Source: Tribonema minus
Lineage: Eukaryota > Sar > Xanthophyceae > Tribonematales > Tribonemataceae
Assembly: GCA_017506865.1 (NCBI GenBank)
Contig: JAFCMP010000190.1
Coordinates: 1,083,817 to 1,147,816 of the forward strand
Length of the DNA: 64,000 nt
Direction of reading: 5' to 3'
Below the pieces are notes generated by a model that did not search any database, had not been told where the DNA came from, and was given only the letters and a program-made list of their open reading frames with translations. Positions 1-58,882 of this stretch are shown in pieces. The stretch's first letter is position 1. Each line of letters opens with the position of its first letter. The translations under genes and the position numbers were made by a program.

Positions 1-251
1 GGCGCAGCTGGCGCGGGAGGCACAGCTGGAGGAGCAGGTGCGTGCTGTTTTGAAAGTTGAAGGATTCTCTATAACAGAGGTAGTTTATTTTGAGCTCAAG
101 GAGGCGCAGCTGGCGCGAGAGGCGCAGCTGGAGGAGCAGGTACGTGCTTTGTTTGCGGAAGTGATAGAAATTAACAATGCCAGAAGTAGCTTATTTTGGT
201 CAGAGATTGACAAGTGCCTGGTCGCGCGGGATGCCCAGCTGAGGAGTAGGC
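1..251 (+). repeat. Tandem copies of a 39-base mini-exon with its donor
   Basis: The segment ending GGAGGAGCAG|GT occurs at 1-37 and 101-139, both with intact donors. A decayed third copy lies at about 216-251, where the donor has become GC and the end reads GAGGAGTAG. Spacing is about 102 and 112 bases. The first two copies are both usable exons; the third carries an in-frame stop. Confidence 0.8.
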
Positions 252-982
252 ACGTCTATTTTGGACGATTGGTGTGTTGTTCATCAACACACTAGGTTGT
301 CCGGTTCTGTCAACTCTCAAGTCCGAAGACTTTGTGCCCAGTGCACTCTGACCGAGGGCCTAGTAGCCCTGGGTCTGGACACCGGTGCAAGCCTAGCACT
401 TCTTCCAGCAGCGAGGATGTAAGCACTAAGCAGTGCTCAGGAGCATGCAGCGTAGCACTGGTACGACACATGCACACCCCGCGGCGCCGCTGTCGGCGCA
501 AAGCACGCACAACAGCAGCGCTCCCCAAGCCCACTCTACCCGCGCGCAGAAGTACGAGGCAGCCGTGCACTATAGCTCGTAGACGGCACACCAAGCACAC
601 GAGACACGCACAACGCCCCCCAACCCTTATCCCCCCCCCGCCCCCCCCCCTCCCATGCGCGCAGGAGTACGAGGCGGCCGTGCGCTACAGCTCGGAGGCG
701 GCGGCGCGCGAGCGGCGCGAGCGCGACGCCAAGCGCGCGGCGTCGCTGCAGCACCGCGACGCCATTCTCGCGCAGGTGCAGGACGCAGAGGCGCGGCGGC
801 GCGCGGAGCGCTGCCACAAGTTCGAGGAGGGCCGCAGGCTGCAGCAGGAGGCGGCGGGCGAGCGCGCGCGCCTCGAGGCGATGCGCGACCGCATGGTGCA
901 CGACATGGCGGAGAAGGGGTTCAACCCCAAGTACCTGAGCGAGATGCGCGCCGTCGACATTGGCAAGATGTACATGCGGTGA
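1..982 (+). CDS. CFAP45-like ciliary coiled-coil protein, C-terminal part (5' end outside window)
   Basis: Exons seen are 1-37, 101-139 and 665-982 (TGA at 980-982), all joined in phase 0 with GT-AG introns. The last exon encodes about 105 residues of charged helix rich in Arg, Glu and Ala. It contains a FEEGRRL segment and a terminal block with NPKYLSEM, close to the 'FxEGxxL ... PxKYxxEL' ending I associate with CFAP45/trichohyalin-plectin-homology proteins, which bind inside ciliary doublet microtubules. The two upstream mini-exons each encode the same 13-residue coil, EAQLAREAQLEEQ. The start lies to the left of the window. The coiled-coil nature is certain from the sequence; the CFAP45 assignment rests on the tail only. 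Another TPH-type axonemal protein is the main alternative. Confidence 0.55.
540..586 (+). repeat. Decayed echo of the 665 exon start
   Basis: This stretch repeats the acceptor and first 40 or so bases of the exon at 665 (GCGCAG then AGTACGAGGC...), with several transitions. One of them turns TCGGAG into TCGTAG, a stop. It lies just upstream of the real acceptor, so it is a decoy acceptor or a former exon edge. Confidence 0.8.
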
Positions 983-2474
983 AGGGCGCGCGAGGGGGGG
1001 GGGGGGGGGCGGGGGGGGTCTGTTGGTGATGGTGTGCGCCTCGGTGTACGTCCCACAGGCAGGGGCAGGGGGGGGGGGGGGGGGCAGGTAACTGCCGTGA
1101 TCAGGGCGGTGTATGGCAATGCGGTTGCGCGGCTGCTGCAGCGCGCTGCGGGCGGTGGCCAGTGGCTCAGTGGCTGAGAAAGCTGGCAAGCATGGTTCGG
1201 TGCGCATTGAGAGTTGTTTGGTTGTTTTACTGGTGAAAGTACATACATACATGCCGCTTGTGCACTGAGGCGCGCCCCTGCGTTTGTGTGACCTGCACAT
1301 GCCTTGCGAGAACTGAGCGTGTGTGTGGTGTGTGTTGTGCTCACTCAATGGGGTGTTTCAAAACGGGCCAGCATGTGAACACAGACGATCGGACCACTAA
1401 CAGTTGCCGTCAACTGAATGTTTTAATCCAGTCCACAACTATGTGCACGAAGCAGATGGCGATGCGCCCGGATCTCCTTTCGCACAGCACCGGTTGCCGA
1501 CATCACGTTTCGCTTACGATGACTTCAAGATGTGCAAGTGTTGGTGCACCGACCATTGCCCTCTTTCAACCCGGAAGAACAGGCATTCTCACTGCTGATG
1601 TGTTGCTGCTTATGGCCTCCGTAGCCCCTGATGGCAGTTCTGTCTAGTTCTAAAATTTCTGAAGTGCACACCTTATAAATGGGTTCAGGTGTGCTGGTGA
1701 TTGTGATCATACTTGCAATCACTTGCATCACGATACAGTCGGCAGGTGTGCATTTGTCAGCTGTAACTCACACTGCGGACTGCATCCCGTCAGATGCACT
1801 GATGTCCAGATGCTGCAAACTAAAGCAACCTGCTTGCCTGAGCAGGCACGTCCTGAATAGAGACACTTGCTAGCCTGATTTACAGCCTGGTGATAAGTTT
1901 ACGTCTCAGGTGTCTATGGTTGACAACGCACATTGAAACTACAGTAAGATCGCTCGATGCTTGTGCTCAACGGGCCGAGCAAGCGCCGCCTCGCCCTCGC
2001 TGGCCTGGCCCCCTTTTCCCTACAATGAGCTGAAAGTTAATTGTGGGCCTCGACTTCAACAGCGCGCTGCCTTCTGGCGCCGCCGCACCTCCCTCGCGCT
2101 ACAGCGCGCGCTCACACGTGTCGTGATCGACAACTGGAACGCAGTCATTGCCCCTGATGGCGACGTCAGCGCTTACCGCCGCATCGCACTGTTGCAAGTG
2201 CCGCGGCCCTCGCCGGCCAGCGCCGAACCGCCGGCCCCTCCGTAGATTTAGTTATTGCAAACCCGATTTATCGTGTGCTCACCCATGCGTCAGGACATAA
2301 ATACAACTTCAACTGACTTCAAACTTCTCAACGGTTCTCAACTGTTGAAGTAGTTAAAATTCGGACCAGAAAGGTACCTATAGGTTGCTGGCGTAAGCCT
2401 GATGGTGCAGCGATGGCTTCAATGACAAAATTCGTGCCTTAGCGAGGCAGATCGCTGCTGCCGCAGCAATCACC
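983..2474. other. Intergenic spacer, 3' flank of gene 1 and 5' flank of the NHL/EGF gene
   Basis: No convincing exon. It begins with the 3' flank of the coiled-coil gene, which has G runs at about 995-1010 and 1069-1084. An open frame at 1961-2245 (94 codons) has no recognisable domain and no supporting splice sites. I see no clear TATA box or other promoter motif before the ATG at 2475. Confidence 0.6.
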
Positions 2475-6500: not shown

Positions 6501-9500
6501 TTGAACAATTCCGCATCGCTCATTGCGTCAGGACATTATGATTGTCGGATCAAAGGAAGACAAAGAGGCGCAGCTTCTGCTTACCACTGCCATAGCCGCT
6601 CAATGTTGTTGCTGCCGCTGCTGCAACCGTCGCATGCGGTTCTGACGCATTAGCGCCGGTGGCGCTTTACCTCAACCTCTTCCAGTTCAACATCAACCAC
6701 TCCACACGCCTCTACTTAACTCGTCCGTGCTTTTAGTCGTACAGCGAGAACAATGGGTGCTGATCTGCCCGTACGTTTTCGCGTCGCTGCAGCTGCCGCA
6801 TCCGGCGCTTGTCGCCAGCCGCGTCCGTCGCGCTCAGCATGACCTGCGCCACACGCCTCATTGACGTTGTCCGCCCCAGCGGCTGCAGCAGCTACGACCC
6901 GCCGACAGACGACAGGTGAGGCGTGCAGGCCCAGACGACCACCGCATCGACAGTGCGCTTCACTGCTGTTCAACGCTTTATACTGTGCTGGTGCTTGGCT
7001 TGTAGCATGCCTTCAGGGTGAAATCAACGGTTGTTTACATGTGTGATATGCTATCACCAGTCCAAAGTGCTCTGCATGCGGCCATTATTCGATGAGCTGC
7101 TTTGACATGTGGTGTACACAGCGCGCGCATGGCTACCGGCCTGGATGGCCCCCCCTCGTGCTCCCCTTGCTGACCCATGATGATGACCTCTGCTTTTCTG
7201 GCTCCATGACATCTGTCAAAATGTCACCACCTGTGACATGAGGCATACGCGCTTTTGAAGAGACTGGCAAGTGCCAATGACATACTGCCAATCATCTGTT
7301 GTACAGCGCAAGCGCTCGTCTCTACATGCTGTCACAGGCTGCGCTCTAGACCACTCTGTGCGTGGCAACGTCCGACTGCACCTCTCCACTGCTGACTCGA
7401 CGTCCCTCCTTGCGTATGCCCCCCCTCTCCCCCCCCGCACGCGCTGACATCATCGTACACATACCCAGGGACAAAACCGTGGGCGCCGTGTACGGCCACG
7501 TCCACTACAACCTCGCAACCTACGGGTCATTGAACGACGCGATCGACGGCCGCGAAGTCGCGGGGCGTCAGATCAAGCAGTGCGTGGGCAGCCCCCCGGT
7601 GGACGTCCTGGACACGGCCGCCGCGCGCGCGCTGATTGGTCAGGTCATCGACGACGGTCGCGCGGTCGTCAAAGAGGTGAGCATCACCGTGTATTGTTTG
7701 GGTGGGGTATGCAAGGGTATGGTGTGTGCAGGTGATACGCGTGCAGGTCGGCCAGGCCGTCGATGACGAGAGCATACATCCGGTAGGTGCGGGTATGGTG
7801 CGTGCAGCCGCTGATCGGCCAGGTCGTCGACGACGGGCGCACGGCCATCAAAGAGGTGCGCATCACCACCAAGGGCATGTTGGTATGGTAGGTATGGGTA
7901 TGTGTGTGTGTGGCTGCGCGCGCGAACTGATCGGCCAGGTTGTGGAGAACGGTCGCGCGGACGTCAAAGAGCCCTGCGAGACGACACGGCACCAGTGGCA
8001 TGTAGGGTGGTATGGGTGTGGGCGTGCGCTTGTAGGATAGGTATAAGTATCGTAAGCCCCTGAAACAGAACGGCACTTTGGCGTTCGCTGCTCATAGTGT
8101 AGCCTTAAGTGCCGCTCGTGACGCGCCGCCAATGCACGCGCGCACTCACTGCCACCATGCCTTTCTCCTCCTAACAGCGACGGCTTGCTCTCCCTCCCTC
8201 GCACGCGTGCGGCGCCGCAGGACACGGGCGACGGCACGGTGCTGCGGCTGCGCTGCCCCAGCGGCTGCGCCGCCGCCGCCGCCGCCGCCGTCTACGGCGG
8301 CGGCGACGCCGCTCAGTCGTACTCTGACGACAGCAGCGTGTGCAGAGCCGCGGTGCAGGCGGGCGCGCTCAACGACACCACCGGCGGTTACATTTCGGTT
8401 ACGCTGCGGCGCGGCGCCAGCGCCGCGGGGGTCGCCGCCGCCGCCACGAGCGCGCACGGCGTCGGCAGCGCGGGCGGCGTCGCCGCGTCGCACCCGCGGC
8501 TGTTCACGGTCGCGCCGTACAATGAGGTGAGTGGTGTGTTGGGGGGGGAGCGATGCTGCTCTAGAGAGCGGCGAGCTGCTGTGGCACGATTGATTGTGCA
8601 CGGGTTTTCGGTTGTGTTGATGTGGTTGGTGGCAGCGTTCGTGCATGTGTTTTTTGCCACGGCAGGAAACGAGGCGCGCCAGCAGTAGCAAGGGCGCTGC
8701 TGGTGCTCCACCTGCTGTCGGATGATCAGTTGTCGCAGCGGTGGCAATGGTCAGCACTGTGGCCGCCGCCGCTGCCGCCGCCGCTGCTGCCGCCGCCGCT
8801 GCCGCCGCCGCCGTCGCCTGCCTCCGTGTCGCTTCAGTAAGAGGGAACCGTCACCGCCACCGCCGCCTCCTGCCACATGCCGCTTTACAGTGAGCCACGT
8901 TGATGCATTAGTTGACTTTGAGACCTTGCCACTGCCGCTGCCGCCGCCACCGCTGCGCAGTCCGCCATCACCGTGGAGACGATCGCCGGCCGCGCCGCCG
9001 CGAGCCTCGAGGCCGGCTGCGGCTTTGCGGATGCTCAGCCGCCGCAGGCCGCCGCGCTGCGCGCGCCCGCGGGCGTCGACGTCTGGCGCAGCACCGCCGC
9101 GACAGCAGCGCTCGGCGCGCCGTCACCTGCCTTTGTCTTCATTGCGGACACGGGTAATCACGCGATCCGCGCGCTGTCGGCGGCGTGCGCGGCGCCGTGC
9201 GAGAATGGGGGGGCGTGCACGGGGGGGGGCGGGGGGGCGGGCTGGGGGGTCTGCGCCTGCGCCCCCGGGTGGGGGGGGGTGGACTGCACGACGCCGCAGT
9301 GCTCGACGCCGTGCGGGGCGCGCCAGGTGAGGCGGAACGTGTCGGGTGATGCTTCAAGTGGTGGTGCGGACGCTGGCTGCTAAAGATAGCGGCGCGGGTC
9401 GTGCGGGATGCGCTGCTAGGCGGTGTTTCCGACTGCAGTTGCGGGGCTTTGCGCGCAATAGTACTGCAAACAAAACGCGTCTGCAGCATCTCGTGAGGCA

Positions 9501-12500
9501 TACGCGCGCGCAGCATGGAGCTGCAGGCGCGCACGTTTCTATTGGAGGGGACGAGGGGCAGAGCTGTGGGGCGGGGCCCTCGCAGCTGTGCGGCAGCGGC
9601 AACAGCCGCGCAGATCACAGCACACCAGCGCTCAACTCTACTCACTGCGCACAGCGTCACTCAGACAGACGTCAACGCAAAGTTGCGCTCATCACTACCA
9701 AAGCGCTAGTCCGCTCTGTGGCGTGACGCGCCGCGCCGTGCCGCCGCCGCCGCCGCCGCAGGTCTGCATCGCCCCCAACACCTGCGCGTGCGCGCCCGGC
9801 TACGGCGACGTGGCGGCGGGCTGCGCGACGCCGCTCTGCGCGCAGCAGTGCTCAAACGGCGGGCGCTGCGCGGCGCCGGACGCGTGCGCGTGCGCGCCGG
9901 GGTGGTTCGGCCCGTCCTGCGAGGCGCCCGTGTGCGCGCAGACGTGCGGCAACGGCGGCAACTGCACCGCGCCCGACACGTGCGCGTGCGCCGCGCAGTG
10001 GGGCGGCGCCGACTGCCGCGCGCCCGTGTGCGCACAGCGCTGCCTCAACGGTGAGCTGCGCTGCGGGGCTGCAGCAGAGGGGGGGGGGGGGGGGGGGCGC
10101 TGGCGAACCGTAGTGTACCCGTGCACCCGGGGGTTTCTGATTGGTGTGCATCGCTGGGTGTTGCCCCTCAGGCGGGGTAATCAGTGACTTTGACGGCACG
10201 CGTTTTGAGGGTTAGGGTTAGGGTTAGCCCTAACCCTAACCCTCACCCTCAGCAACGGGCACTGTCGCCGTCAGCCACTGCCGCGCAGTTCAACGTGCGC
10301 TACCGCGCGCATCCCCATGTATGCTCGGACGCTCACACCGAGCAGTAGCACGTGGGAGCACCACAAACACCCCTGATGCGAGTGCACTGAAATTGAAGCA
10401 CAGTGCACGATTTTGCAGCGACAGCGGCAGCTGCGCGCCGCCGACTTGGGCGCATGGGCAGCGCAGCAGAGAGTCGCCGACTGCTGCGCGTCTCTGTGCA
10501 AGCAGCAGTACATCATACTGTGCATGCTTCAGCGCTGCCAGATGCCGCGTGGCTGCCAGGAGTGGCATGCCACTGGCGTGTTGCCGCCGCACAAGGCAGG
10601 AGGGGTGTGAAGCACGCAGGCAGCCACGTGCCCTGCAGCACGGCTTCTTCGAAATTGAGCCAAACTCTTTAACAGTGAACTTTTCGAACCAAAAACAATT
10701 TGCCAGTCCAGAAGAAATATGTGCCTCACCGAGCCTCTCCCCCAATCCCCCCTCCTCTCCCCAGGGGGCTGGTGCACCGCACCCGACACGTGCACGTGCC
10801 CGCCCCAGTGGACGGGGCACGACTGCGCCCTACCCGTCTGCTCGCAGGGCTACTTTGCACCCGCGCCGCCGCCCGCGGGCCGCCCCGCACACTGGGCGCG
10901 CTACGCGGCGTGCAACACAACGGCGTGGTGCAACACGACGGACGGCTTCGACTGCGCGCAGCCGCGGCGCACGTACGCGCCTGCGCCCGTGCCGTGGGGC
11001 CCTGCGCATCGGAGCGTCACAGGCTGGAAGGTGCGCTGTTGAACTTGACGCGCCGTCGCGCATGCCGTGAGGCGCCTCGCAGCGGAGCGTCACCGGCTGA
11101 AAGGTGCGCTGTTGAACTTGGAAGTACGTGCCGGCCCTGCGCATCGGAGCGTCACAGGCTGGAAGGTGCGCTGTTGAACTTGAAGTACGCGCCGTCGCGC
11201 ATGCCGTGAGGCACCTCGCAGCGGAGCGTCACCGGCTGGAAGGTGCGCTGTTGAACTTGAAGTACGCGCCGGCGCTGCGCAGCGGAGCGTCACCGGCTGG
11301 AAGGTGCACTGTTGAACTTGAAGTACGTGCCGCCCGTGCCGTGGGGCGCCGCGCAGCGGACCGTCACCGGCTGGAAGGTGCGCTGTTGAACTTGAAGTAC
11401 GCGCCGGCGCCCGTGCCGTGGGGCCCCGGGGGGCGACGCGTTACTGGCTGGAATGTGCGCTGTTAAACTTGCTATATGCGCCGGCGCCCGTGCCGTGGGG
11501 CGCCGCGCAACGGAGCGTCACAAGCTGTAAGGTGTGCTGTTGCTGTTGAACTTGCAGAGGGCACCGCACAGCGGAACGTCACCGGCTGGAAGGGTGCAGT
11601 CTTGAACTCGCAGTCTTTTTGGAGGTGCCTCAGCTGTACAGTGCACGCAGTAGGGAGAGGAGCACGGTCGTTGAGCTGGGTACGTCGGCACCTTGGGCTT
11701 GGTGCAGCGCGCCAAAATTAACGGTCTTGACACATAGCGCCATGGGTACCAGTGGCGACGCCTCATCCCAGGGCACCAGCGCACCAGCACCGAAGTGGCG
11801 AAGCGTCACCCGCACTGACACCGCACAGCCCCCCCCCCCCTCTCTCTCCTCTCTTCCCCCCCCCCCCCCTGGTGCAGACGGAGCCCCCCAGGACTGCCTC
11901 ATGCTCGAGTTGTCAGCAGACGCCATCTCCCCCTTCCCCTACCTCCAGGGCGCCAACGCCTCCACCCCCTACATGCGCTACAGCGCGCTGTCCCCCTACA
12001 ACGCCTCCGACGCCCCCGGCGCCCCCTGGTGCCCCCCCCCCGCCGGCGCCGCCAATGCGACCGCGCCCTGGGGCGGCGCCCCCGACCGCCAGGTGGCGCT
12101 GGTGACGCGCCTCGACGCGGCGGAGGGTATGTATGTATGCGCAAACGGGGGGGCGTGCGTCGCGCCCGACGTGTGTGCGTGCGCGCGCGGGTGGGCGGGG
12201 TTCGACTGCCGCGTCCCCGTCTGCGGCGACGGGTACTACGTGGCCGCGCAGGACGCCTTCGTGGTGAGCGCTGCTGCTGCCGCTGCTGCTTGCCCCGTGT
12301 GCTTGCGCATTTTGCCCCGGCATAGGGCTGGGGTCGGCGATGTGGGCACGCTGTCGTGCGTGCGCACGTGGCTAGGCTGGGTTCAAGTGCCGTTGTTTGC
12401 ATGTCTGCGGCAACGGTCCCTTGTCTGTGGCTGACCGCAACGCAGCTTTGTTGGGGGGAGCGATGATGCGTATGGCGACCTTGCCTCAGCCCTAGACTGC

Positions 12501-36935: not shown

Positions 36936-37242
36936 AGCGCAAATCTTGCGCAGTGTACAATGTGCATTTTGAAAGAAGATTGCTAAACATTGCACGTCAG
37001 GGTAAATGAACAGCTTGTTTTCTGTTTTCGGCCTCTGATTTTTTTCTTCTTCAAACTTGAGGTTGAGCAAACTTCATCGCTGGAAAAGCGACGCGCCTCT
37101 CTCAACTCGACAGAAGCGCGCTCTCCTCAAGAAGGGCTGCAACGTGTTGCTGCAGTGACCAGCGAAGCAAGGTGCAAGATTTTCCTTGTTGGCAGCATCA
37201 CACCCTAGCTGGAGCTGGCCACGAACAGCTGCATAGCAGACC
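36936..37242. other. Short spacer before the GH81 gene
   Basis: About 300 bases of lower GC between the coiled-coil gene's stop and the GH81 ATG, both on the plus strand. It contains a T-rich stretch at 37037-37051 and a TTCAAACTTGAGG motif. I see no firm promoter element. Confidence 0.5.
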
Positions 37243-40200
37243 ATGGCGAGGCCTCAGGGGTATGATGCGATCAGAGAGATCGCAGGCAACAGCTTGGACA
37301 GGGTGGAGGAGGATCAGCCTTTGCTGCCGGACAACGGAGGCAATGGACGACGCAGCAAGGGCTGCAACTGGGGCAGCTGGTTCTACTACAGCTGCTTGAC
37401 TATAGTGGTGCTCGCCGGTGTCGTGTCCCTGCTGTTCAACATGCTGGGCGGAGGCGGAGGAGGGATCCCCATCGCCTCAGACACAGGTGAGCGTGTAGAG
37501 CTGTAACTTGGCCTCCACAGCACGTGCTGATGAATGTGGTGCAAGCTGAGGCCTTTGAGGCAAAGCCGCAGGCTGATGACAAAAGCTTGCGCTCTTGAAT
37601 TTGCTCTTCACTTGGTAGACTGTGGTGCACTGTGCACTGTGCTGCGCCGTTGAATGTGGTGCAGTTGCTGAGTGCTCTCCGCAACGTTTTCTGTTTCCAT
37701 CGAAAAGTTGGCATTTCGTCACCACGATCTTTGTGACAGCGGAGGACGTGCCCCCTTCTCGGAACACCGTCAACAGTGCACACCAAACACCCTGCATCTT
37801 GCTGAAAAAACAATGTGCGCCATCTTCACCACTAAAACGTATTGTTTTGCAGTATGACCATGTAGGATCCTGAAAAGCAATACTTCGAAGTACATTATTT
37901 TTTCTCAGAGAAAGCCTCAAGCAAGTTCAACACTTTGCTGTCCTTGAAGTACAACGAAATAGCTTCACAGGTTGGGGCTGCTGTTGCTGTTGCAGCAGCT
38001 GGCAAAGCACTGCGCTGCCATACCGATCTGTGGCACGTCTGACATAAGTTGAAGTGCACACATTTGGTGGCTGCATCATGAACCACGTGCCAACTTCAAG
38101 CGCTGCTGCTATACGCGACTGCAGCGATCGTGGTTTGCATGCAGCCTGTCTACGGCAGCGTCTCGTCATCTGCCATTCAGAGGCCGACAGGCTCTTGCTA
38201 TTTGGGCTCTGGTTGATGGTGCTGCTGGTGTGAATGCCCACTAAAGCCTACACTTCAAGAAGAAATTGTGATGACATTACACTGAGCGTGCTCAGTGTAT
38301 GGCTATGCGGGCACGGACTCAGTGTTCCGGACGCGATTGGTCAGAGGCGTTCTAGAATGCGGCAGCGGCGCCAAGCCAGCTGCAGCTCGTGAGCACGCAT
38401 TTCCCTTTCCTCCTCCGAGCACACGGTGCCATGGCTTGACTGGGCCTGGATCGCAAGCCACTTTTGTGTGCGTGTGTATGTAGTCTGTGAATGTCTACAA
38501 TGGATCTCCGACTTGCAGAAGCGCGGCCGTTCGCAGGCGTTATGTATAACTTGAAGTACATGTTGGATTCTACTCTGTAGACCTGCGGCAGTTCGCAGGC
38601 GCGCGCTCAGCGGCGGCAGCGCCGCGGCCCCACTGCGCTGCAGGTGCCCGACTCTCTCCCACATCTCAAAAGCCAACAGCCCCTCCCCCGCGCACGCCAC
38701 AGCGCGGCGGTCCAGTCGGACCCCTCTCACCCCCCGGGCCCCCAACCCCCCGCAGAAACGACGACGACGCTGCTGCCGCAACGCGCAGGTGTCCCCTTCG
38801 TGACGGCGGCGCACCCGCTGCGGCCGACGGCGCTGTGGGGGGCGGTGAAGCCCCCCTACCCTACGGGCGCGTGGTTCACGAACCTCGTCATCGGCGCCGG
38901 CGACCAGCCCGTGGTGCCGCTGCCGTACGCTGTTCGCGCCGGCGCGCACGGCATCGACGTCAGCTTCAGCGCGGTGCGGCGCCAGGCGTCGCGGCGGCGC
39001 ATCACGGACGTCTTCGATGCGGACCTGACAGTGGGGGCGGCGGAGGGGTACCTCGGGCACGCGCTCACGCGCTACGACAACCTGTCGGCGAGCGTGAGCC
39101 ACGAGCTGCGCGGGGGCGCGGCGTTTGCGACGCACCTCGTGCGCGGCAGCCCGTACATGACGTTCGGTGAGTCAACTACTGCAGTGGCAGTCTCGACAAA
39201 GTACTTCGAAGTAAATGGAATAAAATGGGAATGGAAAGTGGCGTTTGCGGCGCGCCTCGTGCGCGGCAGCCCGTACATGACGTTCGCTGAGTCGCGAGGT
39301 CTGTGTCAAAATATAATTGGCAACGAAGTAGGAGCCACGAGCAACGCGCCGCCGTCGTCAATTCCGTCCTGCTCAACCGAATCACTCACGACAACATTGA
39401 AATCATGTGTACCAGTAATATAGTAGATGGAAAGTGTCGTTTGCAATGCGCATCTGGCGCGGCAGCTCGCACATGACATTTGGTGAGTCGCTCCTGGCCT
39501 AATACATGCCCACCAGACCTGAAAAGGGTTACTTGTAGTCTATCAGATGACGACAAGTGCTGGTCGCAGCGCGCCTCGTGTGCGGCAGCCAGTACACAAC
39601 AACGCTCAGCGAGTTCCGACCTGCGCGTTGGCGCCTCAGACGCGTTCCGCCGAAGCGACGCGAACACATTTACCGGCTGTCTTGGCATGGCACCGCCCTT
39701 GCAATGCTTCACGCACGGGGTTCTTCGCGACCCCGTGCTGCCGGTTCACGGGGATTGAACAGGGGGGCGCGCGGCTGCCCGTCATGCGCGCGCAGCAGCG
39801 GAGCGCGAGCCTGCAGCGGCATTGCTGGCGGCGGCGGCGCTGGCGGCGGCGGCGCTGGCGGCGGCGGCGGCGCCGGCGATGAGCTTCGGACCACTCATCA
39901 GAGCAGCGCGTGGCGCTGCCTCGGCAAACAAAGTCTTCATTCAGAACCTGCAAGTTGAGCTTTGGTTTTGAGGGTGAAGCCGAAGCCGCCCGCGTGCCCC
40001 CCCAATCGGCGCGCCACCTGGCCGCCCCTGTCGCTGATGGCAATGCTGCCGCTGCGCGCGCCTGCTGCCGCTGCGCGCAGAGCACAAGGAATCCTTGTCA
40101 ACGACGCGACGCCGACGCTGCGCTACCTCAGCAGAATTTTCCTCCAGATGTTTCCAATGAAGCCTCGTTTATGCGGTTGTGAAGCCGCTGCACACGCGTG

Positions 40201-41191
40201 CCCCGCCTCTCGGTGGTGGTAACATTGCCGCTGTGCGCGCCGCCGCCTGCTGCGCGCAGAGTACAAGGACGCGACGCCGACGCTGGCGACCGCGACCAGC
40301 ATCCTGGCGCTGGACGGCAAGCCCCTCAAGGAGGGCGCCACCGTGCGCGGCAAGACCTTCAAGCTCGGCCTCAGCAACTGGGAGACGTGGATGGTGAGCG
40401 CGCTTCGGTGGGGTAAATGGGGGCGGTGGGCTCAGGTGTGGTGGGGGAGGTTTTGGGGTAAGATTCGGGGACGGTGGGGGGGGGGGGCGTAAGGAGAGGA
40501 TTTGTGTACAGCAAGACCCCCTCAGCTCGGCCTCAGTAACTGGGAGACGTGGATAGTGAGCCCGCTTCGGAGGGGTAAGGGGGGGCGGTGGGCCTAGGTG
40601 TGGTGGGGAGGGTTTGGGGCAAGATTCGGGGACGGTGGGGGGGGGGGGGGGGGGGGGGGGGTACAGCAAGAAGTACTCTGCAATTGGGAGGCGTGGTTGA
40701 TGAGGCTCGATTCAGTGTGGCAGGGTTGGGAGACGTTGCGAGCGCAAGTATCGAGGGTGAAGTCCGGACTACAGGAATAGGATGGAGGGGGGGGACCGTG
40801 TGTTCTCAGCAAGAACCTTAGATCAGCTGGCTGCGGCAACTGGGCGACGTGCTTGGTGAGCCTTGCCGAGGTAAGTTTCAGTTTGCGCGAACGTCATGCA
40901 GCTCACATCAAGGTCTGGCAGAGCACACAATCATGGTGTCGCACACAGGTGCACACACGTCCGGGAGCGTCAGTTTTGTCGCCCCCTAGGAACGGAACAT
41001 GCGAACTTCACTTCAATTGTCTTGGAGGCCTCGGGCGGTGGGTTCGCATCCCGCCCCAGCCGCAAAAATTTGAGAACAGGCCGCAAATGGCAGCCCGGAA
41101 AGCGACAAGAGCGTGTGCTGTGTGTGTGAGCCTCACTTCAAGTTCAAGGAGGGCGTTATGTTGTTGCGGGACTCCCAGCATCAGTGCTCCC

Positions 41192-41222
<31 letters not shown>

Positions 41223-43574
41223 ACACCGCCCCCCACAACGTACAGGTGTAAACGTCCGAGCGACTCCCAGCATCAGTGCTCAACCCCCCCCCCCCCCTCA
41301 CACCCCTCCCTCCCCCCCTCCGCCGCCCCCCGCAACGCACAGGTGTACACGTCCGAGAGCGTCAGCTTCAAGGTGGAGGCGCGGTCGTTCACCGCGCTCA
41401 TGCCCATGTCAGGCATGCTGCGCGCGGCGCTGCTGCCGCGCGCGGGCGACGGCGAGGCGGAGTTTGAGCTCAACGAGCACGCGTACGCGTACGCCAAGGG
41501 CGGCGAGGTGCGCTGGTGGCTGAGCGCTGCCATCATAAAGAATCATTGGCACATTGTGCTTTGAAGCTGTACGAGTATTGTAAGGTACTGTTGTAGTGGT
41601 GGTAAGCCTGTTCAACACCAGGCCAAGTCCCAAGTGTAAAGCATGTGTTTACATGTGTTCGAGCTGAACGAGCACGCGTACGCGTACGCCAAGGGCGGCG
41701 AGGTGCGTCGATGACTGAGCGCTGCTATAGAAAAAAATGTCGGCACTTGTGTTGTGAAGCACTTGTGTTGTGAAATGAATATCGTCCCTGGAGTGGTGAG
41801 CCTGTTCAACACCAGGCCGGTCTCAAGTCTTACCACCTGAAAGCGTGTGCTCATATGTTTTTGAGCTCAACGAGCGCGCGTACGCGTACACTAAGGGCGG
41901 CGAGGTGCGCCAGTGGTTGAGCGCTGCTGTAAAAGAAAAAAAGTGTCGGCACTTGTGCGTGAAGCCCTTCCGTACGAAGATCATGGCTGAAGTGGTGAGG
42001 CTCTTCAACACCAGGCCGGGCCTGCTGTCTTGTTTTTTTCAGAGCACGTGGCTCGTCGTGACGGCAACACCTCGTCGGAGCAACTGTCATGTGCAACAAA
42101 CTGCATGTCATCTCATGCAGCTCCAATCGTTTGCGCTGACCACATGATCGTGTCTGCTGTTGATGGCAGTGCTCTCACTTTCCACCGTGTACATACATAT
42201 GTGCTCGCGCGTCCTTCTGATACTTGTACAGACACGTGGGTCCCACGCGCTGTCGGCGCTGAGCGCTGCTGCAGTTGTGGATGGCGACTTGCTGGTGACG
42301 CTCCCACTCCAAAGTACACAACTAATTACAAACAGCGGTACATGTACTCGGAATATATACACTTTTTTGATGCATGTGATGTTCAAGCCATTCCCCTTTG
42401 CTGGGCAAGCAATGTTGCTGCCGCAGACCCAGTTGGGCTTTGACAGGGACACGCTGGTGACCAAGCTCATACTTGAAGTACATAAAACAAGCTGACCTGA
42501 TTTGTGACTCTCGAGCAGAGCAGGCCCGGTCGGCGCCTTCTTAGAAATTATGGCCGCAGATATACATTTAGCAGTAGATGTACTGGGGATATATATTCTT
42601 TCGACGCATGTGATTTTGACGCCATTTCTCTTGGCTGGTCGCGTGGTGTTGCTGCCGCAGATCCAGTTCGACGTCGACGGCGACACGCTAGTCACCAAGT
42701 TTGTCTGGGAGAAGTACGGCTTTGGGGACCTCCTCATGCTGGCGCTGCCGCACCACATCGACATGATGGACATGGAGACGACCGAGGTGGCCATGCCCAA
42801 GGCGTACCAGACGCTCAAGGTGAGTTGTTTCAACTTAAAGTTCTTCAACTTGAAGTTCTTCAACTTGAAGTTGACATTGATTGTGTCGACTGCACTGCCG
42901 TCATGGGCATGATGGAGCCGACCGAGGCGGCCACGCCCAAGGCGTACCACCAGACACTCGAGGCAAGCGCGGCCGTCCTCATCGAAGTTGAAGCGTTGGG
43001 AGGGTGGTGGCAAAGGGGCCCCCACCGTACGTACAGGTACATACTCTGATGCTGAGCCTGCCGCGCCACATCAAGCCGGACATGGAGCTGACTGCAGTGG
43101 CCGTGCCCGGGGCCTACCAGACGCGCAAGGTGTTAATGCACGAGCCCGCCAGGTATCCGCGTGCGGGGCAAGCAGCGCGCGGGGGGGGGGGGGGGGGGCA
43201 CGCTGGCATCGCAGTGAGCTGCAGGAATGGTTGGGAGGGGGGGCACAAAGGGCGCGCGTGTGCACCCACACCTCCATTGTCACTGCCCTTTCTCCGCTGT
43301 GGCCGCGACTCGTGCGTTCAGTGCTCCGCATCGCGCTGCGATTCGCTTTCCGTGCGCTTGCGCGGCAGCGCGCGACGCAGCTGCCAGCATCACTGCCGTG
43401 CTCGCCGCACTCCGCGGCGCGCTCCGCCTTTGCTTCTCCCAGCTGCGCGCGCGCAGTCGTTTCCCTGCCACCGCACGCCATTCCCCGCCGCTGCACCTCT
43501 GTCCGCGGCGTCTCGGCTTGTGTGCGCGACGATGATGCTCTTCCATGATGACCTGCGATCCCACTGCCAACTGG

Positions 43575-43632
<58 letters not shown>

Positions 43633-46600
43633 ATATAGGGGCGCACGACGGGCGTCGTGGGCACCTCGTGGGAGATGTGCGAGTCGCAATCACGCTTCGC
43701 ATTTGTTTCTTCCAGCTGCGCGCGTGCAGTCAGTGCAGTCACTTCTCCGCCGCCGCACGCCGTTCCCCGACGCGTCCTCGTCTCGCAATGCCGACACTTT
43801 CACACTACGGCCTGTGGGCCCACTGCCAACTCGTTCTTCTCTCTTTCGCGTGCGCAGGGACGCATGACGGGCGTCGTGGGCACCTCGTGGGAGATGCGCG
43901 AGGCGCTGACGGCGGTGGGGTGGGGGACGGGGGGGCTCGCGGGGGGGTGGGGGGCGGACCGCGCGGACGAGATTCGCGCGGAGCTCGTCAAGGACATCAG
44001 CACGGAGCACCCGACCGCCGCCGACATCTACGGCTTCAGCAAGCAGGTGCGCCTGTAGACGCTGATTGTGAGCTTGGCCCGGCTGACATCTGCAGGTCCA
44101 GCGAGCAGGGGGGGGGGGATGGCAGTGTGCGCGCGCGCAGTGCGCTTGCGATGCTCTTCGGTGCAAGGTGCGAGGCGCTGGCGCGCCCGGCGCCGATCAT
44201 AGCAGAATTTGATGAGTACTTGAAGTGCATACTTTGAAGTACATGTGCATTGTGTGGTTGTGCGGAGTTTGGCTGCTAGCGTGTGTGTTGTTCGAGTCAT
44301 ACCTTCATGTACGTATGCGTTGGTGTTGCTGTGCGATCCGTCAGCTGCTGCACATGTACTTCGAAGTTTCCTTCAAGTCATAGTTTGAAAATACATGTGT
44401 ACTTCAAGTCATACTTTGAAGTGCATGTGCGTTGTGTTGTTGTGCGGCCGATCGGCCGCTGGTGCGCGTGTATGCGCTGAGATGCTCAACGCTGACGCGC
44501 TGCGCTGCCGAAACCGCCGTAACCGCCGCAGAGCGCGAGGATGGCGCGCCTGGCACTCATCGCGGAGGAGCTGGGCGAGATGGGGTACAGGGACCAGGTG
44601 GGCGCTGATGCTACGGGTGTTGAGCACTGCTGCTTTGCACCGCTGCCTGCTTGTGAGAAGAGTGTGTGTGGCATTCGAGTTGTCCTCGTCGCTGCCCGAG
44701 CGTCTGTTTTATGTTTTTGGCCACTGTTAGGCGACCGCGCAGCACTGTATTACAATGCTGCCAAAAGCACTGCGTGCAAATTATTGCCAACACCTTGCAG
44801 ACAGCGGTGCGGAGCGCTGTCGCTGGTACATGCCATACCTGCGGGCTCATGTACCACCACCGTGGTCTCGCAACGTGCGTTGCAACTTGCGCACGGAGCA
44901 GGCGGTCTCCGTGATTGAAGATGCGATGGCGGCGTGGCTCCGCAACGACAACAGCGACCTCCTCGTGTACGACAAGACGTGGGGCGGCGTCGTCACCTAC
45001 GACGGACTCAACGACGCCGCAGCGGACTTTGGCAACGGTTGGTGAGAGCAAGCAGCGCGGAACAGTATTCGGGTCGCAAAACATCCGCTCTGCGCAGTGT
45101 TGTCCGTGCAGTGTCGCCGCCGAGTTTGACGATGCATATCCAAGGCGTGATGATCTGTTCACACGTACGACGGCCTCAATGACGCAGCTGCGGACTTCGG
45201 CAACGGCTGGTGAGAGGCACTAATGTTGCTAATTCTCTTGGCCCCAACAATTTTGCACCGCGTCGTTCTTGCGGTGGCGCTGCAGAGCTGGCTGATGCAT
45301 TTGCGACCTGCATCTCAGATGTGTAGGATTGCTGCTCACACGTACGACGGCCTCAACGATGCCGCCGCGGACTTCGGCAACGGCTGGTGAGAGCAGTCAG
45401 CGCCGCATGCGCATACTTTGTCCACAGACAACAACTCTGCGGACGGTGGCCTTTGCAACGTTGCGGCGGAGTCTGGCGACGTATTGACAGCATGCGCTGT
45501 TCTGCTCATCTATGTGCATGTACGACCACCCGAGCGCCGCCGCGGTGGGCTTCAGCAAAGGCTGTGGTGAGATCAGTCAGTGGCGCGGCTTGCGCTGGTG
45601 TGCAGAAGCCTCGCTGCCTAAGGCGGCCCCTGCGGCGTTGTTGCAGCGGTGGTCGATGTACTACCCAAGGTATCATCTACCGCTCGTGCGTATGACGGCA
45701 TCAACGAAGCTGCAGCGGATTGTGGGACTGGCGTGAAATGCTGCATCAGTGCTCAGGAATTTGGCGCATGCGGAACGCTAAGTAGTTCGGGGCAAACTCC
45801 GCAGTAGATGTTGATCTGGTGAGAGCTGGTCGACGCTGGCCTGTGACTCAGGCTGCTTGCGAGGAGTCCTCGGCATAGCTGACCTGTGAAATGAGCACGG
45901 CTCAACGCTCAGGCAAATCACTTCAGTGGCTACTCGCCCGAGAGCCACGGCGTCTTCTCACTCAGCTCCACTTCCGCCGCAGGTAGGGTACAACGGCCAC
46001 CAGTATTGCTACAACTGCTTGCAGTGCGCCGCAGTGGTCGTCGCCACTTCAGTTGTGCTCAGTGCCCATCTTCTGACCCGCAACTTCGATGCGCTCACGT
46101 GATAAAATTGCAACGTGGTCTCAAGACAGCGCCGACAGGCCCTTGCTTCTCAGCTAGCGCCAGGTGCGCACTCGAAGCCTGCGCTGCGCGCGCTGCCGCC
46201 GCCGCCGCAGGTACAACGCCCACCACTTCCACTACGGCTACTTCTTGTAAGCTGGTGCGACGTTCTACCCTCGCCCTGCACTCAACGCCGCCTGCCTCGC
46301 TGCGCTGCGCCCTGCCGCTGCCGCCGCACGTACAACGACCACCACTTCCACTACGGCTACTTTTTATACGCCGCGGTGGTCGTCGCCACGTTCAGTTGTG
46401 CTCAGTGCTCGACTTTGAACTACGATTTGTTACGCCTGTATTGCTGGAACCTCCACCTTGTCTCAAGATTTTCCTCACTTCTCAGCCAGACATGCAGCGC
46501 CAGACACGCACTCAAAGCCTGCGCTGCGCTGCCCGCCGCCGCCGCAGGTACAATGACCACCACTTCCACTACGGCTACTTCTTGTACGCGGCGGCCGTCG

Positions 46601-49600
46601 TCGCCAAGAACCGCCCCGGCTTCTACCCCGCGTACCGGCGCCAGCTGGACTTCATGGTGTCGGACATTGCGTGCCACCGCGCGCTCGCGGACCGCTTCCC
46701 GACAGCGCGCCACAAGGACTTCTTCGACGGGCATAGGTGCGTGCGGCGACTCGTGGGGGAGGGGGGGCGGGGGGTTAAGGCTCCCAGTCTGGCCCCTGAC
46801 GGTATGTCTCCGGTATGCTGTCAGTGCATATCCGTGTGATTCAGTACGCAAGGTGCCAAGTCGCACTTGGGGGGGGAGGGGGAGCGGGGGGGGTTATGGG
46901 GCCCAGTCTGGCCGCGTCTCTGGTATGCTGTCAGTACGCGCGCACATGGTTCTGTGTGCAAGTTGCAAAGTCGCAGTTGTGGTGTGAGGTGCCTCCAGAC
47001 CGTCCATGCTCACAGCGCAAACAGACGCAGTCTACGGATACTCAAGGCAACACATGCATGCATATCTTCCGTGATTGTGAGGGCTGGGGCTGGGGTGCGT
47101 GGCAGCAGCGCTCAACTTGAGAGCAGCGCCGGAAAGGCGCGCGGCACGCTCACAGGCCGCAGTGCCCTCGCAGCGCACTTCGGCTGCCGCACGCCGCGAG
47201 CGCTGCTGTGCGTCTGCTGCAGTCTTGCGCTTTCGACATGTGTTGCTCTGTGCGTCAGCGTTTGAGGCTGGATGACAAATGGCGCACGCTAGCGCTGCTG
47301 AGCGTTGATATGCCTCGACGCGCGCATGCTCGCGCGCGCGCTGCACGTCTGATTGCGGTCCGCGAGCACCGCTTCGAGGTGCTCTGCCTCTACCGTGCCG
47401 TCCGTGCCGTGCAGCTGAGCGTGCAGCCCACTGTCACGGGGCCAACGACCGTGGATGACCTGTGAGAGCAGCTCGACTCTGACTCTGACTCTAATGTGTA
47501 TCCAACAATTCGCACACTAAAAATCCCATCCGCGGGTTTGTTGTGTGCGCACAATGCACTCCGTGCGCCAAGCACCGCCACTGATGCTGCCGCCGCCGCC
47601 GCGCCACGCTCGCGCAGCTGGGCGAGCGGGCTGTTCTCGCAGGGCAACGGCAAGAGCCAGGAGAGCAGCTCCGAGGCCGTGAATGCGTACTACGCCGTGT
47701 ACCTGCTGGGCATGGCCACGGGCAATCGCGAGCTGCGCGACTGGGGCCGCATCCTGCTCGCGGGGGAGGTGAGGGGGGCGTGACACGCGCCATGTTGTTG
47801 TATGCTGGTGGTGCGGTGCGGTGAGCACAGTCGCTGTGTTTGTTAAACACGGGGTCGCCGCGATCGGGGGCGGCTGGGGGCGCATGCTGCTCGTGGGGGA
47901 GGTGAGGGGGGCGCGCGCAATGCCATTGCAGTGCTTGTCAAGTTGCGCTTAGAGCGCGAAAAAGCCCAGATGGCTGCTGTCAAGCCCGCTGCCAGACTCT
48001 ACAAGCACTTCGCGTCCACGGGCAACAAAGAGCTGCGCGACTGGGGCCGCATCCTGCTCGCAGGGGAGGTGGGAAAGGCGCGGCGCGTGCTGTGTCGTTG
48101 CACATGTGGATGACTATTGCGTAGGGCGAGAAACTGTCCAGATGATTGATGCGGGCGCGGCACGCGATGGCAGCGCAAACGCGCGTCAGGGCAGTGAAGC
48201 AGCGCGCATGCGCGAGAAGTCGGCTGAACCAGTTTGGACAGCACCCTGTCCTCTCTCTGACATGCCATGCTGGGTTTGCGGCCTGTTCGGTGTGCCCCAT
48301 AGTGAGGCGATGACTGGAGCATCACGACCGTGACTGCAGCCGCAGCATCCTGCGCAGCGGGGGAGACGAGGGGGGCGCGTCGCGCAATGCCGCTGTGCCC
48401 CCCCCCCCAAATGATGGGACCGCGCAACCTGAGCTAGAGTGTGCACACATGACTCATGGCGGTGGTAGTGGTGCTGCGGGCACAGCCGCGGCGGAGTGTT
48501 TTGATAACAAGTGCTTTCCGGGCGAAGAACAGCCATGCTCGGTGACACGCGTCCGGCAGCGCAGTGGGTCGAAGGCTCTCATCCGATGTCACGGCACACA
48601 CGCTTGCGCTTTTTGCCGCCGTACCGCAGCTGCGCTCGACTTGGTTTGAATCAGTGCTTTCGAGAGCAACCCGCAAAAGATCCTGAGCCCTTTATCGAGT
48701 ATCACGAGTCCAACAGTGCGTGTTGGGCACAGGGGCGTCGACATTGAAGCACGCGCGCGCGGCAGCGCAGTTGGCCGAGTGCTCCAATCCGATGCCACCC
48801 GACACACGCTCGCACTCGCTTCCCCCCCCCCCCCCCCCCCCGCCTGCAGCTGCGCTCGACGGACAAGTACTGGCACATGCGCAACGACAGCGACGTCTAC
48901 GACTCCATCTTTGCGTCCAACCGCATGGTCGGCGTGGTGGGGGGGCTGGACGCCGTGGACGTCACCTGGTGAGCAGTTGAAGTTGGACTTGTACTTCAAC
49001 TGTTATCATTCGGGTGCACCAGCGGTGACGTGCTTCGATCTGGGGTTCAGAATGTGAGTTTTGGCGTCTGTCAACACGTCGCTGCGGTCTTTCTCACCGC
49101 CTGCCTCGACGGGCACCAACTATTGGCAGTAGCCTCATGTGATCAGGATGATCCTGCGTGCAATTCGAATCTTCGATGTTTGATGCTGGGTCCGCAGCAA
49201 GTGCCCGCTCCTCCTCCCCCCACCCCCCGACGCACACACACACGCAACACGGTCATTACTCTTCTCAAAGCTGAGCTCTGCCATCGTGTCATGCGTCACT
49301 GCCTGCGCTCAACGCTGCCTGCTTGCTTCAGCACTGCCATCCCGGTGTGCGTTCTGTGGCGGCACGCGCGCTGCATACCTACATACCCGGCCACCGTGCG
49401 CAGCTCTCAGCTCTCCTGCATGCACGCTCGACAGCCCCCCTGTCGCAGTGCATGACGTGGCCTCATCTTCTCGCCGGCTTTGCCGTGCCTCCCCTGCAAC
49501 GCGCACAATGTCAACCCCACATGCGCGCTCATCAGCGCTCCGCAGCGGTTCATGATGTCGCTGAGCTTGCGTCGCTCGTTTGTTCTGCCTTCCCTTCCCT

Positions 49601-50667
49601 GCGACACGCAGGTTCGGCGACAACGTGGAGTACGTCCACGGCATCAACATGATGCCCTTCACGCCCATCAGCGCGGAGCTCCTGCCGTACGGCTACATGC
49701 GCGAGGAGTGGCCCATGCTCGCGACGGCGCTCACCAGGTGAGCGCTGCTGCCGGCGCACAGCCGCAATGGACTGTGCTTCTCTCTTTGTGCTAATTGTTG
49801 ACCATGTACTACGAGGTAAATGTTAATCGATTTACCATTCGAGAAATCAGTCAGCGGGCGATTGCGGATGCGTAGTGTTGTGGTTGCCGGCATGACCACC
49901 CGTGCCAAGTTGGCAACGGCAGAGTGGGCCCGTGCTTGCAGCTGCGCTCAGCGGGTGATGTGAGCGTTGCCCTAAATGGTGGCTTCTGTCTGCCTGACTT
50001 TATCTTTTAGCAAGACAGGCCTGTCACTGCGACGCCTTCACCAGGGCTCAGTACGTCCACGTTGACGTGGCACGCTTTCTCGCATCCCTGATGTAGTGTC
50101 GCCGTTGGCTGACAAGGCTGCTGTACAAAATGCCCCGCTTGTCGGTTTGCCTTCATGCATCCTTTCTGGAGCAAGCGGCACGCCTGACAGCTCTGCCCTC
50201 TGACCCCAGCAGTCGATCTCACGTGCAGAGCTAAGTCCACTCTTGATGCACGATTGGAGAGGGTACCCTTACGGCATTGGTTGCTCAAGGCCAGCAAGCG
50301 TTGTCAATGTCCTGAGTTCTGTCACCACCACACCTGCTTTGTGAAGCATGCACTACACCCCCCTTCAACCCCTACCACCCCCCCCCCCCTCCTCCCCACG
50401 TCCCACAGGGAGGACCCCCCTCTCGTGGCCCAGTGGGAGGGCTACATCCACCTGGCGCACGCAATCCTCGACCCGGAGGCGGCATGGTCAGGCATCAGCG
50501 ACCTCACCGTGTTCGACGCCGCCAACTCCAAGACCAACTCGCTGCACTGGGTGGCGTCGCGCCCCGCGCCGCCGCCGGGCTACAACGAGACGCTGTATGC
50601 GGAGATGAACGCCGCCGCCGCCGTGACGGTCCCCGTCTCGTGCCTCGAGAACAGCGCGTGTGAGTAG
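37243..50667 (+). CDS. GH81 endo-1,3-beta-glucanase, membrane-anchored (complete)
   Basis: Exons: 37243-37486, 38789-39166, 40260-40393, 41343-41507, 42661-42819, 43858-44046, 44532-44597, 44902-45041, 46548-46736, 47618-47768, 48850-48968, 49612-49737, 50409-50667 (TAG). The 2,319 coding bases give 772 residues, typical for GH81. Residues 1-45 are cytosolic with an acidic dileucine motif EDQPLL (23-28) and RRSK before a helix at about 46-68, so the enzyme is predicted type II. GH81 landmarks: WFTNLVIGAGDQPVVPLPYA, LLMLALPHH, MTGVVGTSWE, ARLALIAEELG, YDKTWGGVV, YNDHHFHYGYF (493-503), HSWASGL, QESSSEAVNAYYA (569-581), YWHM, WFGDNVEYVHGINMMPFTPIS. By family analogy Asp495 and Glu570 or Glu574 are the catalytic candidates. 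The reaction is endohydrolysis of beta-1,3-glucan such as laminarin. The first intron is placed by phase (G|GT). Confidence 0.93.
39119..39617 (+). repeat. Four echoes of the GH81 exon 2 donor
   Basis: GGCGTTTGCGACGCACCTCG through ACATGACGTTCG|GTGAGTC at 39119-39174 is repeated at 39239-39294 (TTCGCTGAGTC, donor lost), about 39431-39493 (ACATTTGGTGAGTCG) and about 39561-39617 (strongly decayed). Confidence 0.85.
40362..40860 (+). repeat. Echoes of the GH81 exon 3 donor with G-rich intron segment
   Basis: AGCTCGGCCTCAG(C/T)AACTGGGAGACGTGGAT(G/A)GTGAG plus about 110 bases of G-rich intron occurs at 40362-40500 and 40526-40660. Weaker copies are near 40679 (AATTGGGAGGCGTGG) and 40838 (AACTGGGCGACGTGCTTGGTGAG). 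A 25-base G run ends the second copy. Confidence 0.85.
40945..41360 (+). repeat. Acceptor-side echoes of GH81 exon 4
   Basis: (G/A)CACAGGTG(T)(A/C)CACGTCCG(A/G)GAGCGTCAG occurs at about 40944-40977, in altered form at about 41236-41266, and at 41334-41370, the real exon start. C runs of 19 and about 15 bases precede the last two. Confidence 0.8.
41459..41930 (+). repeat. Three echoes of the GH81 exon 4 donor end
   Basis: GTTTGAGCTCAACGAGCACG through GGCGGCGAG|GTGCG is at 41461-41515 (exon), about 41657-41708 and about 41860-41911. All keep the GAG|GTGCG donor, and the coding frame remains largely open in each. Confidence 0.9.
42255..42710 (+). repeat. Acceptor-side echoes of GH81 exon 5
   Basis: GTTGCTGCCGCAGA(C/T)CCAGTT plus the following 50 bases occurs at 42413-42470 and 42648-42705 (real). 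A weaker fragment (GATGGCGACTTGCTGGTGACGCTC) is at about 42280-42303. The upstream copy even keeps GCCGCAG as an acceptor. Confidence 0.8.
42725..43135 (+). repeat. Donor-side echoes of GH81 exon 5
   Basis: GACATGGAGACGACCGAGGTGGCC... CAGACGCTCAAGG is at 42768-42820. Copies are at about 42902-42962 (GGAGCCGACCGAGGCGGCC ... CACTCGAGG) and about 43042-43135, which includes a CTGATGCTGAGCCTGCCGCG echo of LLMLALPHH and ends CGCAAG|GTGTTA. Between them lies a triple TTCTTCAACTTGAAG repeat at 42826-42872. Confidence 0.85.
43577..43618. repeat. (CT)n microsatellite
   Basis: About 20 CT units in the intron between GH81 exons 5 and 6, a few bases before a decoy acceptor. Confidence 0.95.
43634..43915 (+). 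repeat. Acceptor-side echo of GH81 exon 6
   Basis: GCATGACGGGCGTCGTGGGCACCTCGTGGGAGATG(C)GCGAG at 43858-43907 (exon) is preceded by a copy at 43638-43685 (GCACGACGGGCG...). The flanking intron (CTTCCAGCTGCGCGCG) is also repeated. Confidence 0.9.
45000..45738 (+). repeat. Five echoes of the GH81 exon 8 donor
   Basis: TACGACGGACTCAACGACGC through GGCAACGGTTG|GTGAGAG at 45000-45048 is repeated at 45169-45216, 45346-45394, about 45524-45572 and about 45692-45738. The second and third copies keep a perfect GGCTG|GTGAGAG donor. Confidence 0.9.
45983..46620 (+). repeat. Four acceptor-side echoes of GH81 exon 9
   Basis: CAGGTACAACGCCCACCACTTCCACTACGG-type sequence lies at about 45983, 46208, 46329 and 46545 (real exon). 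The 46329 copy extends about 70 bases and shares TTCAGTTGTGCTCAGTGC with the 45983 copy. Echo 46208 has a TAA soon after the YGYFL codons. Confidence 0.9.
46733..46965 (+). repeat. Imperfect repeats after GH81 exon 9
   Basis: A G-run, then CCCAGTCTGGCC, then GTATGCTGTCAGT(G/A)C is found at about 46752-46830 and again at about 46867-46940, following the donor CATAG|GTGCGT. Confidence 0.75.
47718..48385 (+). repeat. Four echoes of the GH81 exon 10 donor end
   Basis: CACGGGCAA(T/C)... GAGCTGCGCGACTGGGGCCGCATCCTGCTCGC(G/A)GGGGAG|GTG is at 47718-47775 (exon) and 48017-48075. More decayed copies are at about 47865-47912 and 48328-48378, the last reading GGAGACGAGGGGGGCG with the donor lost. Confidence 0.9.
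48540..48870 (+). repeat. Acceptor-side echo before GH81 exon 11
   Basis: GCAGCGCAGT(G/T)GG... CCGATG(T/C)CAC... ACACACGCT(T)GCGCT recurs at 48555-48640 and 48770-48855. Each is followed by a CGC(A)GCTGCGCTCGAC stretch that in the second copy is the real exon start (48850). Confidence 0.8.
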
Positions 50668-51208: not shown

Positions 51209-51241
51209 CCCCACGGACAGCCACGTGCCCTGTCCGTGGGG
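51209..51241. repeat. Centre of the palindrome
   Basis: CCCCACGGACAG (51209-51220) and its exact reverse complement CTGTCCGTGGGG (51230-51241) are separated by nine bases containing CACGTG. Outside this 12-base stem the arms continue to match, apart from a small asymmetry (CTGACGCTG against CAGCGCAGC) about 20 bases out. Confidence 0.95.

Positions 51242-58836: not shown

Positions 58837-58882
<46 letters not shown>

Follow-up and report, generated by a model that had tools for sequence, protein, structure and literature searches.

Tandem copies of exon ends together with their splice sites lie inside the neighbouring introns of genes of the alga Tribonema minus. The stretch analysed here, referred to as the window, is the last 64 kb of contig C190 (1,147,816 bases; C190:1083817-1147816) in a genome assembly of 158 Mb and 554 contigs. 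These copies, referred to as echoes, were confirmed in the sampled genes; they are almost all direct, are local, have decayed neutrally and are mostly specific to their locus. They are probably the product of recurrent tandem duplication, in which units of about 160 bp that span an exon-intron border are copied and then decay neutrally.

Under this explanation, small tandem duplications with a median unit of 163 bp would be frequent in Tribonema minus genes. Where a unit spans a border, the mRNA could stay unchanged since the outer, original splice site would be used, as the orthologues and the reading frames suggest. The new copy, consisting of an exon tip, a splice site and a piece of intron, would be tolerated within the intron and be free to mutate, whereas selection on the protein would preserve the original in the exon; repeated events at one edge would leave a series of copies of different ages. 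The copies may be made by slippage or by break repair.

Frequency of echoes at exon edges

Echoes were examined in a GH81 endo-1,3-beta-glucanase gene, which was modelled by hand as 13 exons in a single open frame with GT-AG borders. The model leaves out the N-terminal part, and its last exon is cut at 51222 by an assembly artefact described below. The exons were easy to find because codon position 3 is G or C in 95% of cases. GH81 orthologues (Ectocarpus, Ascophyllum, partial Chrysoparadoxa, others) align without insertions at the echo positions, and a search of solved structures using one GH81 exon gave no match. The last 45 bases of the exon matched its own intron at 6 of 12 donor edges, with scores of 56-80, and the first 45 bases did so at 5 of 12 acceptor edges, with scores of 34-75. 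The scores of 132 mismatched pairings peaked at 31 (donor) and 24 (acceptor), and those of 15 mid-exon controls at 32.

A larger sample was obtained with a simple gene finder based on codon bias and splice sites and trained on the GH81 gene, on which it returned 12 of 13 exons exactly (in-sample); one exon was displaced and two were added, each of them in the region of the echo-rich intron 7. It was applied to 271 kb, comprising 220 kb upstream and the window to 51224; exons scoring at least 15 were kept, and GH81 was represented by the hand model. This gave 91 introns with 88,001 bp. At a score of at least 36, echoes were found at 19 of 91 donors vs 7 of 1092 mismatched pairings, and at 15 of 91 acceptors vs 1 of 1092. 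At the same score, only 1 of 94 exon segments lying 120 bp from the edge had an intron match, and 45-mers had matches in 7.7% of 480 cases in intron interiors and in 4.3% of 400 in gene-poor DNA. When each intron was compared with itself and its exon ends, 21 introns showed donor-edge pairs (43 in all), 22 showed acceptor-edge pairs (32) and 16 showed intron-only pairs (25). A direct local edge echo was present in 35 of the 91 introns, 5 had an intron-internal repeat only and 51 had none. With offsets below 500 bp, an edge echo occurred in 17 of 38 introns of the window and in 17 of 53 others. Orientation was nearly uniform, with 100 direct pairs (offset <700) vs 3 inverted ones in the 91 introns.

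Beyond this contig, an edge echo was found in 10 of 15 introns on C5 and C85, which were chosen blindly, and on C531, which holds a dynein gene; one of these ten is an echo called as an exon by the gene finder. For five dynein exons on C531, the predicted ends agree with the Pfam matches to within 15 bp in 8 of 10 cases and to within 42 and 62 bp in the remaining two.

The GH81 gene and its echoes, all on the plus strand, are as follows.
38756..51221, plus strand: GH81 endo-1,3-beta-glucanase gene, 13 exons, open spliced frame, Pfam GH81 N and C domains
39240..39293, plus strand: exon 1 donor echo, source 39120-39173, 94%; further copy at about 39439
40021..40120, plus strand: exon 2 acceptor echo, source 40200-40285
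40511..40648, plus strand: exon 2 donor echo, source 40350-40487, 89%
41170..41260, plus strand: exon 3 acceptor-side echo, source 41262-41357, low complexity in part
41657..42019, plus strand: two exon 3 donor echoes, source 41462-41530, copies at 41657 and 41860
42334..42465, plus strand: exon 4 acceptor echo, source 42570-42699
42912..42963, plus strand: exon 4 donor echo, source 42772-42820
43609..43687, plus strand: exon 5 acceptor echo, source 43838-43906
45162..45403, plus strand: two exon 7 donor echoes, source 44994-45058
45988..46388, plus strand: exon 8 acceptor echoes, source 46519-46606
47870..48100, plus strand: two exon 9 donor echoes, source 47716-47800

GH81 intron 12 also holds a 29-bp tandem repeat at 50987-51046 with 100% matches, which is probably very young.

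Four further genes were distinguished in the window: a CFAP45-like gene with a Pfam TPH match and a public counterpart protein (P0121), a large NHL/EGF gene, and a minus-strand gene (about 25-31 kb) and a plus-strand gene (about 31-36 kb) that are predictions only, without homology. One gene upstream of the window has SPRY and HECT domains. The CFAP45-like model, after removal by hand of two echo-like peptides, matches P0121 at 99%. The preliminary description had claimed copies of exon ends with splice sites in all five genes and at more than twenty places. Both points are borne out, with echoes in each of the five and, at offsets below 500 bp, at 15 donor edges and 9 acceptor edges in the window, two of which are doubtful or partly low-complexity (35441; 41343). 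The echoes outside GH81 are located as follows; the largest array, at edge 11030, consists of the source and nine shorter matches, all with E <2e-4.
103..255, plus strand: CFAP45-like donor echo, edge 37, source 1-145
550..588, plus strand: approximate acceptor echo, displaced 115 bp upstream, from the exon that begins at 665
7809..7971, plus strand: NHL/EGF donor echoes, edge 7676
11078..11593, plus strand: decayed donor echo array, edge 11030, with three of the nine matches beyond the source only 17-22 bp long
16497..16787, plus strand: donor echoes, edge 16409; the predicted donor GTCCAT is atypical and the edge less certain
17427..17730, plus strand: acceptor echoes, edge 17806
18618..18807, plus strand: acceptor echo, edge 18938
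26723..26914, minus strand: donor echoes of the minus-strand gene, edge 27013
28482..28534, minus strand: donor echo of the minus-strand gene, edge 28832
30409..30533, minus strand: donor echo of the minus-strand gene, edge 30590, 94%
33007..33348, plus strand: acceptor echo, edge 33511
33753..34270, plus strand: donor echoes, edge 33651, offsets 160, 290, 448 and 602

Size and placement of the duplicated unit

The offset to the nearest copy has a median of 163 bp and quartiles of 134-180 in 39 units. Leaving out three donor units and one acceptor unit of at least 260 bp, donor units (n=18) average 49 (sd 16) bp of exon and 95 (sd 37) bp of intron, and acceptor units (n=21) average 42 (sd 21) bp of exon and 128 (sd 38) bp of intron. 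Unit lengths are multiples of three in 14 of 39 cases, which is the chance level for a relation to the reading frame. A nucleosome-sized unit was considered and rejected: a length of about 160 bp is in loose agreement with it, but with an sd of 32-41 the lengths vary too much to support the claim. The exon share of the unit is lower than uniform placement predicts (Kolmogorov-Smirnov p=0.003 and 8e-6) and differs from that in simulated detected lengths (p=9e-4 and 2e-4). When each edge contributes a single value, 17 of 43 exonic lengths are between 42 and 51 bp, a density that no 10-bp window matched in any of 2000 null draws, and we think that the exonic breakpoint prefers a position about 47 bp inside the exon. 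Across the 91 introns, G+C in the exon is about 0.75 but drops to 0.70 and 0.68 over the final 30 bases before donors, and hardly changes after acceptors; this drop at splice sites has so far explained nothing about the echoes.

It is conceivable, and in our judgement somewhat unlikely, that plain tandem duplications occur anywhere in gene bodies and that borders look special since the undecayed exon stays recognisable for longer; this is a form of the main explanation that does without a border bias. Intron-only duplications do exist (25 pairs in 16 introns), short exonic pieces are without clear shortage at acceptors (5 of 19, p=0.2), and the visibility bias is real, since only 23 of 43 edge echoes were still found with the exons hidden (12 of 21 donor, 11 of 22 acceptor), vs 16 introns with intron-only pairs. 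Random duplications were simulated over the same introns and then aged, giving 4915 usable trials in which 1002 of 3572 detected duplications (28%) touched a border. The observed share at the level of introns is 43 of 59 (21 donor, 22 acceptor, 16 intron-only), where one intron may count repeatedly. The border share stays above expectation even after correction for visibility, at P=6e-6 to 6e-4 with exons hidden, for an expectation of 25-32% depending on the earlier intron length that is assumed. The position of the breakpoints also argues against plain duplication: at donors, the first copy starts 60-30 bp inside the exon in 29 pairs and in the last 30 exonic bases in 3, vs only 2 within the initial 60 bases of the intron, where a duplication ought to be harmless, although the pairs are not independent. 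Short exonic lengths are scarce at donors (1 of 16, p=6e-4). An early estimate by clusters (30 edge, 10 noncoding and 5 exon; n=45) was dropped as inflated by 72-bp repeats and by visibility bias.

Borders are fairly likely to be hit more often, by a few fold, than uniform placement predicts; the tests of border bias and of the 47-bp position were formed post hoc and on a single genome. A tentative extension, less likely than not, is that DNA duplication is anchored at splice sites with a ruler, such that units of about 160 bp would have one end in the exon, about 47 bp from the border, at donors and acceptors alike. A mark at the exon edge (chromatin, nascent RNA or splicing factors) would then direct breakage or copying, and introns would grow from their borders.

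Decay, locus specificity and assembly

The claim of graded decay holds, as echoes are 72-97% identical to their exons over 40 exonic bases. In 34 alignments of echo and exon, 171 of 1821 sites differ, at rates of 8.1, 7.4 and 12.6% at codon positions 1-3. Taken singly, these differences comprise 70 silent changes, 97 residue changes and 4 stops, and 28 of 29 indels break the frame, so that neither an open frame nor coding constraint was found in the copies. The pattern of codon positions and indels is the one predicted if the echo evolves neutrally and the neighbouring exon accepts mostly silent changes. Mean identity on the donor side is 0.76 in the intron part vs 0.91 in the exon part, and 0.73 vs 0.89 on the acceptor side (random pairs 0.59); the intron part is more diverged, as expected if both of its copies drift. 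The whole unit is repeated and not the exon part alone, with intron-part identity above random in all but 3 of 34 echoes.

That the echoes are functional alternative exons or splicing decoys under selection is improbable. Splice dinucleotides are mostly kept (GT in 16 of 19 donor echoes, AG in 12 of 15 acceptor echoes), differences are somewhat more frequent at third codon positions, and the public GH81 model uses several echoes as exons. However, this retention of GT and AG is about what neutral change at 8-9% divergence leaves, the original donor scores above its echo in 14 of 19 cases (equal in 4, below in 1), and orthologous proteins lack the insertions. The frame-breaking indels led to the rejection of functional alternative exons. 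In the public GH81 protein P0001 (1057 aa), peptides such as repeated LNEHAYAYAKGGE and YNAHHFHYGYFL stand at exon joins; they are absent from the orthologues and from the hand model, and may be prediction errors. The public CFAP45-like protein contains no echo insertion. Echoes can thus mislead gene annotation and pollute gene models.

Specificity to the gene, on which the preliminary description had based its exclusion of a mobile introner family, was examined by genome searches with window DNA, which omit very common words and score the best candidates only. Five of seven queries match only the locus and its assembly duplicates. One GH81 query also matches C79 over 61 bp at 85%, and another matches C79 over 86 bp at 84% together with a 54-bp dispersed repeat. 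The C79 region that matches the two GH81 stretches (C79:844788-847097) is probably a second GH81 gene. The 54-bp stretch lies in GH81 intron 9 (48639-48692), outside the echo copies, and occurs at a minimum of 33 places on at least 19 contigs, often paired about 1.6-2 kb apart, as a dispersed and partly tandem family. Introners, here considered as mobile elements whose ends resemble splice sites, have been described from other algae, and some of them insert between nucleosomes (PMC9860276). Such elements are very improbable here: every copy resembles its own neighbouring exon, the extra matches are limited to the two C79 segments and the repeat outside the echoes, and a mobile element was rejected because the searches, within their best candidates, did not reveal similar intron sequence of the echo units at many unrelated loci.

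Positions 51222-64000 are an inverted copy of 38453-51221, forming a terminal palindrome of 12.8 kb whose arms differ, over 12,826 columns, by 62 indels (54 in single-letter runs) and 27 mismatches. Contig C245 (37,178 bp) is about 100% identical to GH81 at 42649-45400, 45988-46547 and 48000-51221. Beyond these matched stretches it departs from the window and leads into a cysteine-rich end such as the orthologues predict. Given this different continuation, the palindrome is an assembly foldback artefact, and the true continuation lies in C245. The echo-bearing introns in the matched stretches are therefore confirmed by a second contig. The next intron of C245 carries another donor echo, seen by eye, which repeats about 65 bases of exon and is offset by about 163 bp. 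Public protein P0002 begins with sequence read only on the false palindrome arm. Although the contig end does hold this false palindrome, a sequencing or assembly artefact is an extremely improbable source of the echoes, since the arms differ far less than echoes do (mostly by one-base indels), the echo stretches recur in C245 and the echoes are of graded age.

Several points weigh against recurrent duplication across borders. The 51 introns without any local repeat show none of its traces, and a fourth stretch on another contig, C165, gave no predicted exon. Exons outside GH81 are mostly our own predictions, and some edges may be wrong. Window DNA is not wholly unique to its locus, given the C79 matches and the 54-bp repeat. 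Three of 34 echoes, two of them in GH81, have an intron part with an identity of 0.53-0.57, no better than the random level; this is more decay than the simple model predicts, and the model explains it poorly. The border test depends on the intron lengths at the time when the duplications occurred, and the counts retain impurities, namely EGF repeats with a period of 531 at edge 9326, low-complexity sequence at 35441 and probable leucine-rich 72-bp repeats upstream. Clusters with the 72-bp period lie at C190:1017210-1018320, 1074587-1075682 and 1077511-1078627; leucine-rich translations were found near the first two, and the third is assigned by its period. Introns with edge echoes have a median length of 949 bp vs 671 bp without, a gap with only p=0.08. 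Of the preliminary proposal that introns grow by repeated local duplication across borders, tandem duplication repeated at individual edges stands, and growth is only weakly shown because of this p value. The wording that introns are built from echoes was overstated: recognisable local repeat makes up 13,754 of 88,001 sampled intron bases (16%), and the window has an echo in fewer than half of its introns.

Significance and comparison with known systems

Intron lengthening is hard to document since its traces decay. In these genes the exons serve as a preserved standard against which every echo can be dated and its breakpoints located, and the echoes provide a natural series of intron-changing events. 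Should the border bias and the offset of 47 bp hold genome-wide, they would link a mutation process in DNA to the position of splice sites. The genome also provides a natural test of how the true splice site is picked out from nearby copies by the spliceosome.

Intronic minisatellites and short tandem repeats are likewise tandem and locus-specific. Unlike these, the Tribonema units are long, few and strongly decayed, and lie over splice junctions. The nearest comparisons are with duplications that involve splice signals. In a potato RdRp gene, a tandem genomic duplication across an intron-exon border created a new intron (Ma, Lan and Niu 2016, PMC4974935). The potato unit resembles those described here in joining the 3' side of an intron to the 5' side of the next exon with splice signals, and the gene also has an 83-bp tandem duplication within an intron (PMC4974935). 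The potato case is one event yielding a new intron, whereas Tribonema has many events inside existing introns, on donor and acceptor sides, often repeated, and with exons that appear unaltered. The Rogers model, as described in PMC4974935 and PMC2891723, has introns arise when an exon segment that contains AGGT is duplicated. It shares with Tribonema a local tandem duplication neutralised by splicing. It differs in that the Tribonema unit holds an existing splice site and is about 30% exon and 70% intron; no new intron is indicated, relatives being compared by protein only.

With introners, as far as the main text of PMC9860276 describes them, the echoes share a bulk gain of intron sequence in aquatic eukaryotes, whereas the Tribonema copies each derive from their own border. 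The main text of that paper does not mention Tribonema. Among the papers listed by the literature searches, in which the Tribonema genome paper did not appear and subscription papers were mostly lacking, none described the exon-edge echo pattern in its title or the opening of its abstract. Relative to the literature covered, duplication of this kind is known singly, as in potato (PMC4974935), and its density, its two-sidedness and the apparent 47-bp offset in Tribonema seem to be new.

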